Positions 1 to 4,761 of a DNA stretch of 64,000 bases are shown here, in pieces; positions within the stretch are counted from its first letter, which is position 1, and each line of letters opens with the position of its first letter. This DNA comes from an uncultured bacterium (GTDB lineage: Bacteria; Bacillota_I; Bacilli_A; RF39; UBA660): the NCBI GenBank assembly GCA_947169285.1, contig CAMVPB010000001.1, forward strand, positions 203,226 to 267,225. The letters run 5' to 3'. Below the pieces are notes generated by a model, which was not told where the DNA came from, searched no databases, and saw nothing but the letters and a program-made list of their open reading frames with translations. The position numbers and the translations under genes were made by a program.

Positions 1-2
1 TA

Positions 3-32
3 AAAAAATATAAACAATGTTGTGGTAAATAG
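3..32 (+). CDS. 3' end of a SEC-C motif protein gene (partial, tail copy 0)
   Basis: The frame open from the left edge encodes KKYKQCCGK followed by TAG. This is the end of the SEC-C motif (PCxCGSGKKYKxCCG), the zinc-binding tail found at the C-terminus of SecA and many small proteins. The rest lies outside the window, so it could be a true gene end or one more isolated tail like those at 1103, 2240 and 3891. Bases 3-40 match 3906-3943 at 36 of 38 positions, including the stop codon and the start of the terminator stem. Confidence 0.6.
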   Translation, partial: KKYKQCCGK

Positions 33-75
33 CTCGCAAAGTCCCATAAATAAAGGGATTGCGAGTTTTTCTTTG
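33..75 (+). terminator. Terminator after SEC-C tail 0
   Basis: CTCGCAA (33-39) pairs with TTGCGAG (59-65), with an inner TCCC/GGGA helix, followed by a T-rich run. It begins immediately after the tail's stop codon. The same CTCGCA-type stem follows tails 2 and 3, so tail and terminator travel together. Confidence 0.8.
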
Positions 76-110
76 CATAGGCAAAAATTCAATATTTTAT
101 AAAAAACACG

Positions 111-140
111 TTTTAGATACGATTTAGATACGATTTTTTG
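111..140 (+). repeat. Left arm-like tandem repeat of cassette A
   Basis: Two tandem copies of TTTAGATACGA with an 11-bp period, starting about 80 bp downstream of SEC-C tail 0. A near copy with 12-bp period lies at 973-1000 on the other side of the acetyltransferase gene, so the gene is bracketed by like repeats in the same orientation. Confidence 0.75.
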
Positions 141-162
141 ACACGTTTTTTTATCTTTCAAA

Positions 163-189
163 ATGACAAGGTTCATTTTATGTTATAAT
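163..189 (+). promoter_or_regulatory. Possible promoter of cassette A gene
   Basis: ATGACA (163-168) and TATAAT (184-189) are separated by 15 bp, and an AAGGAG ribosome binding site follows at 212-217. The -10 is convincing; the -35 and its short spacing are weaker. It lies downstream of the terminator and the left repeat, so the cassette appears to carry its own promoter. Confidence 0.45.
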
Positions 190-226
190 TTTATTAGTAA
201 ATAATTATTTTAAGGAGTTAGTTGAA

Positions 227-970
227 ATGAACGAATATATTAATTTAGATGAAAAGAACATTGAAAATGAACATATATGTTGTGCTATAGGAGATCCTAA
301 ACATCAATGTGGTGTGGATAAAAAGAAAGAATGGATTAAAAGTAAATTAAAAGATGGACATGTATTTAGAAAACTAAATGCAAGAGGTAAAATCTTTATT
401 GAATATGAGCCAATAGAAACTGCATGGGTTCCTATTAACGGAAAAAACTATATGTATATTTATTGTTTATGGGTTGCTGGTAGTTTTAAAGGAAAAGGTA
501 TTGGTAAAGAATTATTAGAATATGCTATTGAAGATGCAAAAAATAAAAAAATGAGTGGTGTATGTACATTAGTATCACAAAAGAAGAAACCATTTATTGG
601 AGATAAGAAATTCTTTGAACATTATGGATTTAAAGTAGTAGATACAATTAATGATTATGAATTAATGGCATTACAATTTGATGATAAAGAAACACCTAAA
701 TTTAGTGATAATTGCAGAAAAATGGAAATTGATAGCAAAGATTTTACTATTTACTATTCTAATGAATGTCCATATGTAGAATATGAAGTAAAAGAATTAT
801 CTAACTATGCTAAAGAAAAAGGAATTAAACTAAACTTTATTAAAATTGATTCATTAGAAAAAGCAAAAAATGCACCATGCATATTTAATAATTGGGCTAA
901 TTTTTATAAAGGGAAATTTATATCCAATACAATATTAAATGCAAATGCATTTGACAAGCTTATTAAATAA
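227..970 (+). CDS. yoaP: GNAT acetyltransferase with C-terminal YoaP domain
   Basis: A 247-residue protein with two parts. Residues about 1-140 form a GNAT N-acetyltransferase with the acetyl-CoA loop GSFKGKGIGKE at about 85-95. Residues about 165-247 match the YoaP-like domain usually fused behind a GNAT domain, with a thioredoxin-like start (YYSNECPY, about 175-183). The family presumably transfers an acetyl group from acetyl-CoA to an unknown small molecule or protein. The start has AAGGAG 10 bp upstream. It is the only gene of the first cassette, between a SEC-C tail/terminator on the left and a second SEC-C tail on the right. Domain assignment is from recognised family features; the substrate is unknown. 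Confidence 0.8.
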   Translation: MNEYINLDEKNIENEHICCAIGDPKHQCGVDKKKEWIKSKLKDGHVFRKLNARGKIFIEYEPIETAWVPINGKNYMYIYCLWVAGSFKGKGIGKELLEYAIEDAKNKKMSGVCTLVSQKKKPFIGDKKFFEHYGFKVVDTINDYELMALQFDDKETPKFSDNCRKMEIDSKDFTIYYSNECPYVEYEVKELSNYAKEKGIKLNFIKIDSLEKAKNAPCIFNNWANFYKGKFISNTILNANAFDKLIK

Positions 971-972
971 AA

Positions 973-1000
973 ATTTAGATACGATTTTAGATACGATTTA
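973..1000 (+). repeat. Right arm-like tandem repeat of cassette A
   Basis: Two tandem TTTAGATACGAT units with a 12-bp period, directly after the acetyltransferase stop codon and about 100 bp before SEC-C tail 1. It mirrors 111-140 in the same orientation. The following 1003-1060 holds three GAGGGAAAC-like units and is richer in G and C than the surroundings; no coding is apparent there. Confidence 0.75.
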
Positions 1001-1102
1001 CTGTGAAAGCCGAGGGAAACAGAGGGAAACCAAGGGAAGTATCGAATCACTTTAGCCCGATTTTAAGGACTTTTTGGAAACAGTAAAGGCAAATTGTTTT
1101 AT

Positions 1103-1147
1103 CCATGTGGATCTGGAAAGAAGTATAAAAACTGCCACGGAAGATAA
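1103..1147 (+). repeat. SEC-C tail copy 1 (divergent)
   Basis: Encodes PCGSGKKYKNCHGR then TAA, a SEC-C tail in which the second CC became CH. The frame is closed by a TAA at 1064-1066 and the 26 codons between have no ATG, so this is a gene-end fragment rather than a gene. The terminator after it (1159-1186) is different from those after the other tails. Confidence 0.8.
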
Positions 1148-1158
1148 TAAAAATGCCC

Positions 1159-1186
1159 AAAAAGCCCAGTAATTACGGGCTTTTTT
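1159..1186 (+). terminator. Terminator after SEC-C tail 1
   Basis: AAAAAGCCC (1159-1167) and GGGCTTTTTT (1177-1186) form a hairpin with a U tract, 11 bp after the tail's stop codon. Confidence 0.85.
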
Positions 1187-1211
1187 CATATTCCAAAAAC
1201 TTCAGAAAAAT

Positions 1212-1267
1212 TTTTAGATACCTTTTTGGATACCTTCCGCTGAGTATCTAAAAGGTATCTAGATACC
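1212..1267 (+). repeat. Left arm-like repeat of cassette B with palindrome
   Basis: Bases 1212-1241 hold two tandem AGATACC/GGATACC units (CTTTTT spacer). They match 2111-2140 at 28 of 30 positions in the same orientation, on the other side of the methyltransferase gene. Immediately downstream are inverted copies, including the perfect 14-bp palindrome GGTATCTAGATACC at 1254-1267. The remaining gap to 1470 shows no gene, only a -10-like site. Confidence 0.8.
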
Positions 1268-1442
1268 CAAAAACAGGGTTAAAATACAAAATTTTTGTAT
1301 TGCTAAAAATCACGATATTTCCTTTATTTATAAGGCTTTGTAAAGATTTATTTAAGAAAAAAAGATAAAATTGTGTCCAGTGCCAAAATGACATTGATAA
1401 ATGAGTTTAAAGCATATAATTTTAAATAAAAATAAGAGATAT

Positions 1443-1453
1443 TATGGTATAAT
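1443..1453 (+). promoter_or_regulatory. Extended -10 of the methyltransferase gene
   Basis: TATGGTATAAT, an extended -10 element, sits 18 bp before the start codon; no good -35 is seen. The same 11 bases occur at 2455-2465 before the next cassette gene. Confidence 0.55.
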
Positions 1454-1470
1454 ATTTTTAGGAGGTTTTT

Positions 1471-2073
1471 ATGGAAAAATATGATACTTTAAAATACTAT
1501 AATCAAAATGCTGAAAAATATTGTGAGCAAACTAAAAATGGAGATATGACAGAATCTTACAATCGTTTCTTATTATTGTTACCAGATAGAGCATATATTC
1601 TAGATTTTGGATGTGGTTCTGGTAGAGACAGTAAATACTTTTTAGAAAAAGGATATACAGTTAGGGCAATTGATGGATCAGAAAAGTTGTGTGAATTAGC
1701 TAGTGATTATATTGGTCAAAAAGTTGAATGCATGAAATTTGATGAATTATCAGAAGAATCTAAATATGATGGAATATGGGCTTGTTCATCAATCTTACAT
1801 GTAGAAAGAGAAAACTTACCTGATATACTAAGAAAAATGATTAAAGCACTAAAAGAAGATGGAGTAATTTATACATGTTTTAAAATTGGAAATCAAGAAA
1901 TAGTACAAGATGGAAAATATTACAATTATATTACAAAAGAAATATTAGAAGATATGCTTAGACAAATTGATCCAAATTCAGAAGTATTAGATTATTATGA
2001 AAACGGAACTGCTAAAAATGTAGACAGACCTAAAGCTACTTGGGGGAACTATCTAATTAAGAAGAAAAAATAG
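1471..2073 (+). CDS. Class I SAM-dependent methyltransferase
   Basis: A 200-residue class I (Rossmann) methyltransferase. Motif I DFGCGSGRDS (about residues 45-54) binds S-adenosylmethionine, followed by the acidic strand-2 position (VRAIDGSEKL) and a WACSSILHV motif-IV-like stretch. It resembles the small TehB/UbiG-like methyltransferases; the substrate cannot be told from sequence. The start has AGGAGG 5-6 bp upstream. It is the sole gene of the second cassette, bracketed by the 28/30-matched repeats at 1212 and 2111 and by SEC-C tails on both sides. Confidence 0.85.
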   Translation: MEKYDTLKYYNQNAEKYCEQTKNGDMTESYNRFLLLLPDRAYILDFGCGSGRDSKYFLEKGYTVRAIDGSEKLCELASDYIGQKVECMKFDELSEESKYDGIWACSSILHVERENLPDILRKMIKALKEDGVIYTCFKIGNQEIVQDGKYYNYITKEILEDMLRQIDPNSEVLDYYENGTAKNVDRPKATWGNYLIKKKK

Positions 2074-2110
2074 CAATACAAAAAATATTCGGAAAAAGCC
2101 TATTTTTGGA

Positions 2111-2140
2111 TTTTAGATACCTTTTTAGATACCTTCTGCT
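2111..2140 (+). repeat. Right arm-like repeat of cassette B
   Basis: Two tandem AGATACC units separated by TTTTT, matching 1212-1241 at 28 of 30 bases. It lies 37 bp after the methyltransferase stop and 100 bp before SEC-C tail 2. The 2141-2235 spacer is G+C-rich with repeated GGGC, GCCC and GGCTCCC words that could fold; it has no gene. Confidence 0.8.
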
Positions 2141-2239
2141 AGGTTTCCCAAGTGCTCTCGGAAGCTAAAAAGGGCAAAAAGGGGCTCCCAAATGCCCTCA
2201 AAAGCCCGAAAGTGCCGCCCAAAGTTCCTAAACTAAAAT

Positions 2240-2284
2240 CCATGTGGAAGTGGAAAAAAATATAAAAAATGTTGTGGTAAATAA
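2240..2284 (+). repeat. SEC-C tail copy 2
   Basis: Encodes PCGSGKKYKKCCGK then TAA. An in-frame TAA at 2234-2236 closes the frame just upstream, so only the tail is present. It is the boundary between the methyltransferase cassette and the lipoprotein unit. Confidence 0.85.
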
Positions 2285-2330
2285 CTCGTAAACCTCGATA
2301 AAATAAGGGAAAACGCGAGTTTTTCTTTTT
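2283..2330 (+). terminator. Terminator after SEC-C tail 2
   Basis: AACTCG (2283-2288) pairs with CGAGTT (2316-2321), followed by a T-rich run. It overlaps the tail's stop codon and is related in sequence to the stems at 33 and 3936. Confidence 0.65.
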
Positions 2331-2354
2331 ATTAAAAAATACCTAAAATAAGGG

Positions 2355-2374
2355 CTGGAGCCATTCTGGAGCCA
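2355..2374 (+). repeat. Tandem CTGGAGCCA repeat (possible left arm, unit C)
   Basis: CTGGAGCCA occurs at 2355-2363 and 2366-2374, an 11-bp period like that of the cassette A arm. It occupies the same place relative to the SEC-C tail as the left repeats of cassettes A and B. I do not find a convincing partner at the right end of this unit. Confidence 0.5.
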
Positions 2375-2454
2375 CTTTGATTTAGATATTTGGCTATATT
2401 ACCATTTAAGATCGTAAAATTAGTAATATTCCGAACAAAATTATTTAAAGAATC

Positions 2455-2465
2455 TATGGTATAAT
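2455..2465 (+). promoter_or_regulatory. Extended -10 of lipoprotein gene
   Basis: TATGGTATAAT, identical to 1443-1453, lies 27 bp before the lipoprotein start. No clear -35 is visible. Confidence 0.55.
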
Positions 2466-2491
2466 GGTTATAGAATGTTAGGAGGATTGTA

Positions 2492-2977
2492 ATGAAAGAA
2501 AGAATATTAGTTAGTATATTAATAATTGTTTCAATTTTTATAATTCCAAGTTGTGATTTTAAAAATAATGATAATAAAATAAATAATAATGTGAACAGTA
2601 AAAAAGAAACTAAAGAAAAAGAAAGTAATTCAAATGAGGTGATTAATTCCGTGAAAGTAACAATCAATGGTAAACAATATACAATTCAATTAGAAAACAA
2701 TGAAACAGCTGAAAGTTTTGTTAATTTATTACCTCAAGAATTTAATATGAGTGAATTGAATGGAAATGAAAAATACATATATTTAGATACTACATTGCCA
2801 ACAAATTCATCTAATCCTAAACATATTAATTCTGGTGATGTAATGCTTTATGGAAATAATTGTTTAGTAATATTTTATAAGTCATTTGATACAAGCTATA
2901 GTTATACAATAATAGGCCATATTGATAATTTAGATAATTTAGGAAATGGAAATATAACTGCAAAATTTGAAAAATAA
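2492..2977 (+). CDS. Lipoprotein with cyclophilin-like domain
   Basis: A 161-residue secreted lipoprotein. Residues 1-20 are a signal peptide with a short lipobox ending at Cys21 (IIPSCDF), then an Asn/Lys/Glu-rich linker to about 55. Residues about 58-160 match the bacterial cyclophilin-like domain, with typical segments for VTINGKQY, the strand before the LPQEF turn, and GDVMLYGNNCLVIFYKSF. Whether such domains have prolyl isomerase activity is unclear. AGGAGG lies 7 bp upstream of the start. It is the first gene of the third SEC-C-bounded unit and is followed by another lipoprotein. Confidence 0.75.
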   Translation: MKERILVSILIIVSIFIIPSCDFKNNDNKINNNVNSKKETKEKESNSNEVINSVKVTINGKQYTIQLENNETAESFVNLLPQEFNMSELNGNEKYIYLDTTLPTNSSNPKHINSGDVMLYGNNCLVIFYKSFDTSYSYTIIGHIDNLDNLGNGNITAKFEK

Positions 2978-3002
2978 AAGAAAACGGAATATTAAGATAT
3001 TA

Positions 3003-3027
3003 GGAGAATGTAAAAATTCTCTTTTTA
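3003..3027 (+). terminator. Terminator between the two lipoprotein genes
   Basis: GAGAAT (3004-3009) and ATTCTC (3016-3021) form a short hairpin followed by TTTTT. A TATACT -10-like element follows at 3033-3038, so the next gene probably has its own promoter. Confidence 0.6.
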
Positions 3028-3058
3028 TGTGATATACTATATATGAGGTGAACTTATT

Positions 3059-3745
3059 ATGAAAAAAATGTTACTGCTATTATTTTCTTTAATATTATTG
3101 TTTAGTGTTACTGGATGTGGTTCTAATAGAGAAAAGCAAAATAACAATGGGCAACAAGAACAAAAATATGAAGAAAAAGAAAACAACAATCAACAAAACA
3201 ATTCAAACAATAATTATGTAGATGATGATGAAATTATTGAATTTGATAATGATGATAATGGTCCAACAGATGAAAAAACTGTGACTGTAGAAGAAGTAAT
3301 TAATTGTGATGGTTGTGTATATGCATATTTTAGTGATGAAGGTGATAAAGCAAAAACTTTAGGAGCCACTTTATCTCCTAGTGATTATACAAAGGATATC
3401 AACAATTTAAAAACAGCAGGAGGAAAACAAAGACATAATTTCTTTGGATTAGTACTTTCTGGTAATACAATATCAAGAGCATATGCGTGCGTATTAAAAG
3501 ATAATAAAATATATTGTATTGAAGGATCTACTAATGGTGCATATCATAATAGTAATATTGCCATTTTAAACAAAATATTTACTAATGGTCAATGTAAAAC
3601 TATTTCAGATGGGAACACTTATACTTGTACAGATGGTAGTTATAACGGTGATACAAAAACTAATGGATACACAAGTATGCATTATGAAACAAGTTGTACT
3701 ATCTATGGTGCAAATTCTAATACAGGAAAATTAATTTGCCATTAG
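3059..3745 (+). CDS. Lipoprotein of unknown function
   Basis: A 228-residue lipoprotein. A hydrophobic signal peptide ends in the lipobox VTGC (Cys about 20). It is followed by a Gln/Asn/Glu-rich low-complexity linker and a Cys-rich domain from about 80 (NCDGCVYAYF, ACVLKDNKIYC, CKTISDGNTYTC, SCTIYG, LIC) that may be disulphide-bonded outside the cell. I do not recognise the family; the globular part recalls the exposed domains of pilin-like or surface proteins. AGGTG lies upstream of the start. It is the second gene in the unit ending at SEC-C tail 3. Confidence 0.6.
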   Translation: MKKMLLLLFSLILLFSVTGCGSNREKQNNNGQQEQKYEEKENNNQQNNSNNNYVDDDEIIEFDNDDNGPTDEKTVTVEEVINCDGCVYAYFSDEGDKAKTLGATLSPSDYTKDINNLKTAGGKQRHNFFGLVLSGNTISRAYACVLKDNKIYCIEGSTNGAYHNSNIAILNKIFTNGQCKTISDGNTYTCTDGSYNGDTKTNGYTSMHYETSCTIYGANSNTGKLICH

Positions 3746-3862
3746 TATATGAATATAATAGATCGGAAGATTAAGTTTTTACATACGTTCTATGGATATT
3801 ATCAAACAAATTTAAGTTGCAGAAAATACAAATTCTTTGTAATTTCGATAAAAAAATTGTAA

Positions 3863-3885
3863 AAACTGCAGAAAAATTGCAGTTT
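3863..3885 (+). repeat. Inverted repeat just before SEC-C tail 3
   Basis: AAACTGCA (3863-3870) and TGCAGTTT (3878-3885) form an 8-bp stem with a 7-base loop, ending 5 bp before the CCATGTGG that opens SEC-C tail 3. It lacks a U tract, so it is not a normal terminator and might be part of a recombination site. Confidence 0.55.
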
Positions 3886-3890
3886 CTACA

Positions 3891-3935
3891 CCATGTGGCA
3901 GTGGTAAAAAATATAAGCAATGTTGTGGTAAATAA
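3891..3935 (+). repeat. SEC-C tail copy 3
   Basis: Encodes PCGSGKKYKQCCGK then TAA. The frame is open only back to a TAA at 3849-3851 and has no ATG. It is nearly identical at DNA level to tail 0 (36 of 38 bases compared). It is the last tail seen in the window. Confidence 0.85.
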
Positions 3936-3979
3936 CTCGCAAATTTCTTAAAATACAGAAAGATGCGAGTCTTTTTTTA
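3936..3979 (+). terminator. Terminator after SEC-C tail 3
   Basis: CTCGCA (3936-3941) pairs with TGCGAG (3964-3969), an inner TTTCT/AGAAA helix extends it, and TTTTTTT follows. Confidence 0.85.
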
Positions 3980-4077
3980 TAATTTGAAAACACAGTTAGA
4001 CATAATTTTTGTAAAAAAGTATAGCATTTGCTTAGATGATTCTAAATAAATGATATAATTATAATAGGAGATATAAT

Positions 4078-4761
4078 ATGATTAGTAGGCAAGAAATGTT
4101 AACAATCATGAAGAGTGTTCTTTTTATAATGGTGATACAGGCATGTTTTTAACTGAAGGTGCAACTCAGTTTACTGCTGAAATATTATATAATGTTTCAA
4201 ATGGAACTAATTTAAATTATAGAGAGCAGCCAAATTCAGTAAGAGGACTAAGCAATCATACGTCTTTTACAGTGCTCTTTCTCAATACCAATTAAATGGT
4301 AATATTATAATGCTAATGTCATATTCTCTTGGAATACCACTAAATCAAATTCTTGCATTAGGTTATAGAAGTGATGGAAGAGAGCAATTGAAAGGATTGT
4401 ATGAAGGAAGATTTGAAAAATTTATGTTTGATTTAGAAAAATATACTCAATTGATAAATTACAAATGACTGGTTATGCTGAACAAATGAGATCACAAACA
4501 CCAACTAATATTGATCTTATGGGTGGTCGAAGAAGTTTTCAGGGGAACATTCAAATAGAGAATGAGTTAGTTAATAAAGTAGAACGAGAACTCGCAGCAA
4601 ATTTTATTGCTAACAATGATGAAGAATATATTGTTGAAAATTATCAAAAAATTGCAATGTATCTAACTACATCAGAATTGAAAAGAAATTTTAATAATGC
4701 AGTACAAGAGATAATTAATATGCAAAATCAAAATATTGTTTCATCAAATGTTCATAGATAA
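4078..4761 (+). pseudogene. Frameshifted relic of an unidentified gene
   Basis: Coding-like segments continue in different frames. A short start (ATG 4078, with an RBS-like AGGAGA) soon fails. A second frame gives YNGDTGMFLTEGATQF through RGLSNHTSF. A third gives SALSQYQLNGNIIML to DLEKYTQ, and a last one from about 4450 runs into the 98-residue stretch starting MTGYAEQM and ends at 4761. At least three shifts separate pieces that join naturally, so this is a decayed gene and the final 98 codons are not an independent gene. I do not recognise the family. It lies beyond the last SEC-C tail and may be a decayed cassette or the edge of the array. Confidence 0.7.

Follow-up and report, generated by a model that had tools for sequence, protein, structure and literature searches.

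A tandem array of small cassettes with phage-type ends behind secA in an uncultured family of gut Bacilli

We analysed a window of 64,000 nt (forward strand, 203,226-267,225) on contig CAMVPB010000001.1 of assembly GCA_947169285.1, from an uncultured bacterium. The window opens inside a tandem array. We interpret it, with a probability of roughly 0.8, as a series of integrative cassettes at the secA 3′ end that are not autonomous but are mobilised in trans by the integrase of temperate phages integrating at secA.

Extension to the left showed that the intact gene upstream, guessed in the preliminary description to be secA or another SEC-C gene, is secA itself (830 aa, SEC-C motif at residues 812-830), which ends 2,514 bp left of the first base of the window. 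The array holds six tails (copies of the last ~45 bp of secA), five complete units and a decayed sixth, with five further secA-end copies following the intact gene on the same strand; one tail (7068) and two more units lie between secA and the window. Tails 1 to 3 had been correctly located (Table 1). They match a degenerate secA-end pattern with 0 mismatches, and no tail was found in 200 Markov shuffles of the window (0/200). A mismatch scan of the 64 kb detected no further tail with up to 8 mismatches; allowing 9 added a single match, attributable to chance. The stops noted in frame at 1064, 2234 and 3849 were likewise right, and tail 1 is preceded only by a trivial in-frame TTG at 1094. Tail 0, earlier placed at 3-32, is genuine, but its extent was misjudged, as it begins outside the window and is out of frame. 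Its near-identity to tail 3 stands at 36 matching bases, over a compared length of 39 instead of 38. The complete genes named between the tails were all recovered, three of them with a Pfam match.

Table 1. Features of the secA array inside the window.
Feature	Position	Strand	Remarks
Tail 0, secA-end copy	1-32	+	left 13 bp lie beyond the window; out of frame through an extra A
Tail 1, secA-end copy (att site)	1103-1147	+	pattern match
Tail 2, secA-end copy (att site)	2240-2284	+	pattern match
Tail 3, final secA-end copy of the window	3891-3935	+	pattern match
Unit 3, class 2 cassette	33-1102	+	tail-bounded; cargo with 87-91% DNA identity in other genera
Unit 3 left arm pair, TAGATACG x2, period 11	114-132	+	
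Unit 3 cargo, GNAT acetyltransferase with YoaP domain, 247 aa	227-970	+	Pfam PF00583/PF14268
Unit 3 right arm pair, TAGATACG x2, period 12	976-995	+	tail begins 127 bp further on
Unit 4, class 2 cassette	1148-2239	+	right end shares 82% identity with that of the secA prophage (150 bp)
Unit 4 left arm pair, TAGATACC/TGGATACC, then inverted copy	1215-1234	+	
Unit 4 cargo, class I methyltransferase, 200 aa	1471-2073	+	Pfam PF13649
Unit 4 right arm pair, TAGATACC x2	2114-2133	+	
Unit 5, class 2 cassette	2285-3890	+	arm words unlike at its two ends
Unit 5 left arm pair, TGGAGCC x2	2356-2373	+	TGGAGCC also beside a related phage integrase (L353)
Unit 5 cargo, lipoprotein with cyclophilin-like domain, 161 aa	2492-2977	+	Pfam PF18050
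Unit 5 cargo, predicted lipoprotein, 228 aa	3059-3745	+	no Pfam match
Unit 5 right arm word ACATACG, single copy	3780-3787	+	
Decayed sixth unit	4092-4758	+	remains, with frameshifts, of the 342-aa protein carried by cassette L053_u1; right tail lost

The decayed sixth unit retains 73-90% amino acid identity to the L053_u1 cargo protein (tblastn). All genomes considered here are metagenome assemblies whose contigs often break within arrays, which would favour an assembly artefact or a plain tandem duplication of the gene end. However, the tails differ from each other in synonymous codons, the units differ wholly in content, and the layout recurs in many independent assemblies, which refutes this explanation and leaves it a negligible probability. 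The same recurrence answers the earlier concern that the tails could be full-length SEC-C genes broken by assembly errors.

When other genomes of the lineage were searched for tails, as had been suggested, arrays were found in at least 31 genomes of the family, every tail lying on the secA strand and the largest arrays having nine. The hosts are gut bacteria of the class Bacilli with genomes of ~1 Mb, all from one uncultured family. Relatives differ in unit content, against the possibility that the same units occur everywhere in the same order. One unit common to two genera is identical from tail to tail (917/917 bp), while secA of these hosts is 69.8% identical. In a second case, named MAG contigs from different assemblies share 2258/2258 bp at 99.96%, and in a third, hosts with secA 67.8% identical share 3199 bp at 98.4%. 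Judged by these sequences, cassettes have moved between genera. The intact secA, the differing unit content and the identical cross-genus units broken at tails all support the original proposal of repeated integration at the secA 3′ end with restoration of the gene end, which withstood the refuting conditions set out with it.

For the 917-bp unit, the secA end is the same in both hosts, whereas the next tail diverges after 14 bp, which places the crossover position. Conservation in internal tails sets in sharply at C[AT]TGTGG and ends at the stop codon. The crossover falls within the opening ~14 bp of the tail (CCWTGTGG...); an incoming cassette would therefore supply the last ~12 codons of secA and its terminator and keep the gene intact. 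In this reading, the secA-end copy is the core attachment site of each cassette, accompanied by a left and a right arm pair. Right-end matches in 85k species genomes numbered 86, and a secA tail followed in 77 of these.

The units fall into two classes that differ sharply in right-end sequence (of the ATAATACT type in class 1), in arm words and in the base before CATGTGG; the window cassettes belong to class 2. Left ends could not be separated by single-linkage clustering, which lumped almost all of them together because of AT-rich sequence; in its place we relied on visual families, arm words and the base preceding CATGTGG. Class 2 units have a median size of ~1.45 kb and mostly carry one gene (29/52) or two (19/52), nearly all on the secA strand. 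Their left end is conserved, and in most of them a 7-bp word (e.g. AGATACC) occurs twice near each end, with a period of 11 on the left, usually ~56 or 83 bp past the tail, and a period of 12 on the right, ~110-145 bp ahead of the next tail. The left and right words of a unit agree in 27/33 class 2 cases, against a permutation mean of 8.6 and maximum of 18. Less favourable to the phage reading, 7/101 class 2 units have detectable but unmatched words, and in 36/101 no pair could be detected at one or both ends. All seven pair-like matches in the source genome (7/7) lie inside the array. The AGATAC pair alone gave 22 matches in viral contigs, mostly by chance, one of which (L113) is a prophage right end.

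Integrase genes are present in 14/34 class 1 units and in 0/101 class 2 units. A search for a class 2 integrase inside the arrays found none. The preliminary statement that no integrase is encoded holds for the window units, but elsewhere IME and temperate phage families with integrases use the same site. Class 1 includes IMEs of ~10 kb that encode a pair of tyrosine integrases, Xis and a MobV relaxase and use the same secA end. In one of them, from a relative (L225), Int-A, an HTH_17 Xis-like gene, Int-B and Mob_Pre lie between att sites; the window units, by this measure, are not IMEs. This family also has integrase-less derivatives, and many class 1 integrases are broken.

Prophages integrated at secA are bounded by class 2-type ends. 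One of them resides in a near relative of the source organism (secA 92.3%), with a 376-aa integrase adjoining the left tail; past the right tail of this prophage, 86 bp of DNA show 96.5% identity to the left end of window unit 3. IMGVR_UViG_3300028833_003330, the proposed helper, has the features of a temperate phage, namely a 376-aa Int beside attL, an S24 repressor, a holin and secA tails at both ends. The phage right end matches 20/53 class 2 and 0/19 class 1 right ends, and among left ends the phages each match 6-13 of the 53 in class 2 and 0/19 in class 1. Since the class 2 ends are those of temperate phages at the same site, we infer that the phage integrase (~376 aa, tyrosine type) acts on class 2 cassettes and is the enzyme most likely to excise and insert them in trans.

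Movement of class 2 units by the class 1 IME integrases (Int-A/Int-B) instead is unlikely. The two classes have the core site in common, occur in the same arrays and are alike in left-arm layout, and an IME (L231, 7873-8616) carries the same GNAT-YoaP gene as class 2 cassettes do. Yet right end, arm words and the base before CATGTGG separate the classes, and the phage ends match class 2, never class 1. Structures 6emy-6en0, of the Tn1549 integrase, are matched by the Int of the IMEs and by that of the phage, and IME Int has SAM-like and arm-binding domains. Both resemble Tn916/Tn1549-type integrases, from which they differ by their secA-end specificity.

The window units, tail-bounded and carrying cargo without integration or transfer genes, have the att-flanked form of CIMEs. 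They might be immobile leftovers of prophages or IMEs that accreted in tandem and then degenerated where they lay. Origin of CIMEs by decay is how tandems of this kind are usually explained (PMC5704250), and the decayed tails, the decayed sixth unit and the many broken class 1 integrases fit this. We consider it as improbable as movement by the IME integrases, because class 2 units contain no integrase remnant (0/53), gene number and strand are tightly constrained, and near-identical units with breakpoints at tails are found in different genera. Class 2 ends are phage-like rather than IME-like.

A dedicated chromosomal recombinase, either integron-like or one of two Xer proteins, is a still less probable mover. 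In its favour, and against the phage reading, two Xer-like tyrosine recombinases are all that some genomes with class 2 ends contain; G122 (96% complete), in which no serine recombinase was found, is one of these. No integrase, however, is common to the flanks of all arrays, and the ends are homologous to those of the phage. In addition, arm pairs at fixed distances are a trait of heterobivalent phage and Tn916-type integrases, not of Xer. A serine recombinase as common mover was rejected, being absent from 3/17 genomes searched, one of them 96% complete. The recombinase check proposed earlier revealed two Xer-like proteins and one phage integrase in the source genome, all sited away from the array, which in contrast to an integron has no IntI-type integrase beside it. 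This phage-type integrase (C6, 369 aa, 39% identical to the secA-phage Int), the only one in the genome, has no arm pair or tail beside it and was discarded as the mover. No secA-type integrase was found in this 91%-complete assembly, which counts against the phage reading.

The preliminary description knew of no such system. This is correct for the exact layout, but tandem att-flanked elements without integrase are a known kind, here arranged like an integron. Our search of the open-access literature, with subscription journals and preprints outside its scope, retrieved no report of secA as an integration site. CIMEs and the tandem accretion of ICE/IME-related elements in Streptococcus likewise line up integrase-less att-flanked units at one gene's 3′ end and restore the gene, and are regarded as decayed ICEs/IMEs (PMC5704250); the secA arrays differ by mostly one- or two-gene cassettes, matched phage-type ends, up to nine tails and whole-unit exchange between genera. 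Dehalococcoides ssrA islands (PMC3146451) also lie in tandem behind one gene, with 3′-end repeats and some without integration genes, but the site is ssrA (tmRNA), the recombinase is of the serine type, the islands are larger and they are not known to have a same-ended phage helper. Phage satellites (PICIs, P4-like, PICMIs) resemble the cassettes in a likely helper-phage dependence and in the defence-like cargo of some units. Class 2 cassettes have ends in common with the secA phage, which may mobilise them as a helper would. Satellites are typically 7-20 kb with an integrase (PMC13376191), unlike the class 2 units. Tycheposons (Prochlorococcus; Methylophilaceae, PMC10872708) also bring cargo to a host gene 3′ end with tyrosine recombinases, but use tRNA sites and span 4-200 kb. 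Integron cassettes share the same-orientation arrays of mostly single-gene units and a tyrosine recombinase that is not cassette-encoded. Here, in contrast, the site is double-stranded secA coding sequence with phage arm sites, IntI is absent, units have their own upstream regions and insertion occurs behind an essential gene.

Cassettes may be carried in phage particles, or move along with a neighbouring phage or IME. A circle of only 1-2 kb is much smaller than a phage genome, which counts against transfer in particles unless the cassette is excised jointly with a phage or forms concatemers. Because the units are bounded by a secA-end copy and phage attachment sequences, the locus looks like an integron-style gene store using phage machinery. 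More tentatively, it could be an integron-like, phage-served system without an integron integrase, in which cassettes are captured, stored and swapped singly at secA via the integrases and attachment sites of secA phages and, in parallel, of IMEs, and circulate among genera of genome-reduced gut Bacilli with cargo that includes candidate anti-phage functions.

The array reveals a hot spot of gene exchange in a family of uncultured bacteria whose genomes measure ~1 Mb. Two unrelated families of mobile elements have come to target one 45-bp stretch of an essential gene, and individual genes seem to have escaped from these elements as minimal cassettes. Mobility here would naturally be set by the arms of the attachment site and not by an integrase that the element encodes, and because the arm words co-vary, the specificity of the integrase can be tested directly. 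The array may also be a model for the origin of integron-like systems.

The preliminary description had placed four copies of a SEC-C gene end in the first 4 kb of the window. These copies, or tails, correspond to the last ~45 bp of secA, and all four were recovered, one of them partial at the left edge of the window and the three complete ones without mismatches to a secA-end pattern that allows for codon degeneracy. No further tails were found in the 64-kb window when up to eight mismatches were allowed, a single chance match appeared at nine, and shuffled sequence gave no tails with the same pattern. Extending the contig leftward, as had been proposed, revealed the intact secA, which ends 2,514 bp before the window and encodes 830 aa with SecA domains and SEC-C at 812-830. 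Two tails precede the complete ones of the window (Table), and the second of these, which reaches into its left edge, has lost the reading frame through an extra A. In total, the array has six tails and five complete units (the DNA between two tails; 1.07-1.61 kb each), plus a sixth unit that has decayed. Its host, with a genome of 981 kb in 16 contigs, belongs to a large family of small genomes.

Table. Coordinates of features at the secA array and at related loci
Feature	Position	Remarks
Tails left of the complete window tails	L002 7068 and 8213	between secA and the window tails
GNAT-YoaP gene	window 227-970	
Unit 5	window 2285-3890	arm words TGGAGCC left, ACATACG right
Decayed sixth unit	window 4092-4758	
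Right-end part of the secA prophage	L113 5621-10707	adjoins right attachment site
Phage integrase beside degenerate tail	L355 ~420-530; L356 ~1440	
Phage integrase of the window's genome (L349)	~G000:C6:15328-16431	
~10-kb IME family at secA	L225 5773-15694; L227 5917-16318; L231 4770-15610	
Unit pair in two loci	L244 12904-16182; L245 2340-5617	98.4% identical from base 81 on

Using the same secA-end pattern, same-strand tail clusters were found in many genera, with at least two tails in 31 fetched genomes and a maximum of nine. Comparison of unit content between genomes, also put forward in the preliminary description, revealed wide differences, yet some units are common whole. For instance, one unit is identical over 917/917 bp in two loci (L044_u1 and L050_u1) whose secA genes are 69.8% identical. 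Two MAG contigs have 2258/2258 bp in common at 99.96%, and a stretch of 3199 bp is common to two further genomes at 98.4%, although their secA genes are 67.8% identical. Copies of the window's GNAT-YoaP gene with 87-91% DNA identity are spread over several genera, both inside an integrative mobilizable element (IME) and in units whose ends differ. This sharing of units between genomes is horizontal movement with breakpoints at tails.

The 917-bp unit also locates the crossover. Its 45-bp secA end is identical in both hosts whereas the remainder of secA differs, which indicates that the incoming unit supplied the secA end. At its right end, the two loci match through CCTTGTGGAAGTGG and diverge beyond it, and strand exchange therefore falls within the first ~14 bp of the tail. 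In 74 internal tails, conservation extends from C[AT]TGTGG to the stop codon; internal tails resemble coding sequence because each was formerly the end of secA.

Right ends split the units sharply into two classes. Class 1 right ends consist of runs of ATAATACTATAAATACT, followed by [AGT]C[AT]TGTGG. Class 2 right ends, to which window units 3-5 belong, mostly carry a pair of 7-bp arm words such as TTTTAGATACCTTTTTAGATACCTT, ~110-145 bp (most often 122-127) before CCATGTGG. At class 2 left ends the word of the right end mostly occurs twice, at ~+56 or +83; the pair has a period of 11 at left ends and of 12 at right ends. The words compared (AGATACC, AGATACG, AGATAAG, ACATACG, AGATACA and AGATCAG) agree between both ends in 27/33 units, whereas 8.6 would be expected and none of 20,000 permutations gave more than 18. 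Unit 5 of the window, with unlike words at its ends, may be a hybrid. In the L244/L245 unit pair the high identity does not extend to the first 80 bp, which looks like a swap of the left end as far as the arm site. All pair matches in the window's own genome (7/7) fall inside the array. The class 2 right-end pattern had 86 matches among 85k species genomes, 77 of them followed by a secA tail; because this set was picked by its right end, units with a right pair are over-represented in it. The hosts, many of which are ruminant MAGs, belong to uncultured Bacilli and Mycoplasmatota.

An integrase was found in 0/101 class 2 units and in 14/34 class 1 units. Genes were counted in 52 class 2 units, of which 29 are single-gene and 19 two-gene units; 81 of the 82 genes have the same orientation as secA. 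GNAT acetyltransferases are the commonest cargo (6/77 proteins), besides methyltransferases, NUDIX proteins, ABC transporters, kinases and lipoproteins. Some cargo proteins match anti-phage system models, including a retron-type reverse transcriptase, but we do not claim defence enrichment. Class 1 comprises IMEs together with units derived from them. The intact ones measure ~10 kb from tail to tail and encode Int-A (437-454 aa, starting ~200-290 bp past the tail), a DNA-binding protein, an Xis-like protein (77 aa), Int-B (~427 aa), a MobV relaxase and cargo; the two tyrosine integrases of each element in the L225/L227/L231 family are different. Int-B relatives were present in 50/282 genomes.

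Scanning viral contigs for the tail uncovered prophages at secA. On IMGVR_UViG_3300028833_003330, the end of secA is accompanied by a 376-aa integrase in convergent orientation to the tail and by an S24 repressor and a holin; close to the opposite end of the contig lies a right end with an AGATACC pair followed by a second tail. This right end matches 20/53 class 2 and 0/19 class 1 right ends, with 82% identity to window unit 4 over 150 bp. Each phage left end matches 6-13 class 2 left ends and none of class 1. Judged by these sequence matches, class 2 ends are phage ends. Related phage integrases adjoining secA tails or arm pairs have the words GATACC, GATACG, GATAAG, GATCCA and GGAGCC; window unit 5 has GGAGCC at its left end as well. 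Over 934 bp, the secA of the phage contig shares 92.3% identity with that of the window's organism, the next-best match reaching 78%, and the left end of window unit 3 matches the 86 bp past the contig's right tail with 96.5% identity. By sequence identity, the source of the contig is a near relative, so that one site holds a prophage in one relative and a cassette array in the other. Next to its right attachment site (L113), the secA prophage harbours type I restriction HsdR and modification N6_Mtase genes (Pfam), followed by a putative specificity subunit gene. Elsewhere, a phage integrase with a TAGATCCA pair lies beside a degenerate secA-tail-like sequence, GGAGTGGAAAAAAGGTTAAAGAATG, perhaps with another SEC-C gene as its site.

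These loci show site-specific integration at secA with tail-to-tail exchange, two end classes, cognate unit ends, and ends in common with a phage. The phage integrase would recognise the word pairs as its arm sites, acting in trans to excise and insert cassettes; these may travel as circles, or together with a phage or IME that has excised from a neighbouring tail. The window's genome, in a 91%-complete assembly, now has no secA-type integrase, and in some cassette-bearing genomes Xer proteins were the sole recombinases found; the integrase must therefore be visiting or lost. The phage integrase in the window's genome is 39% identical to that of the secA phage and adjoins a repressor-like gene, at another site than secA.

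The nearest precedents are tandem accretion and att-flanked elements without integrase (CIMEs; PMC5704250) and the ssrA islands of Dehalococcoides (PMC3146451). Compared to these, the secA cassettes differ in their minimal size, regular one- or two-gene make-up, phage-type matched ends and exchange between genera. The secA array works like an integron, yet is no integron.
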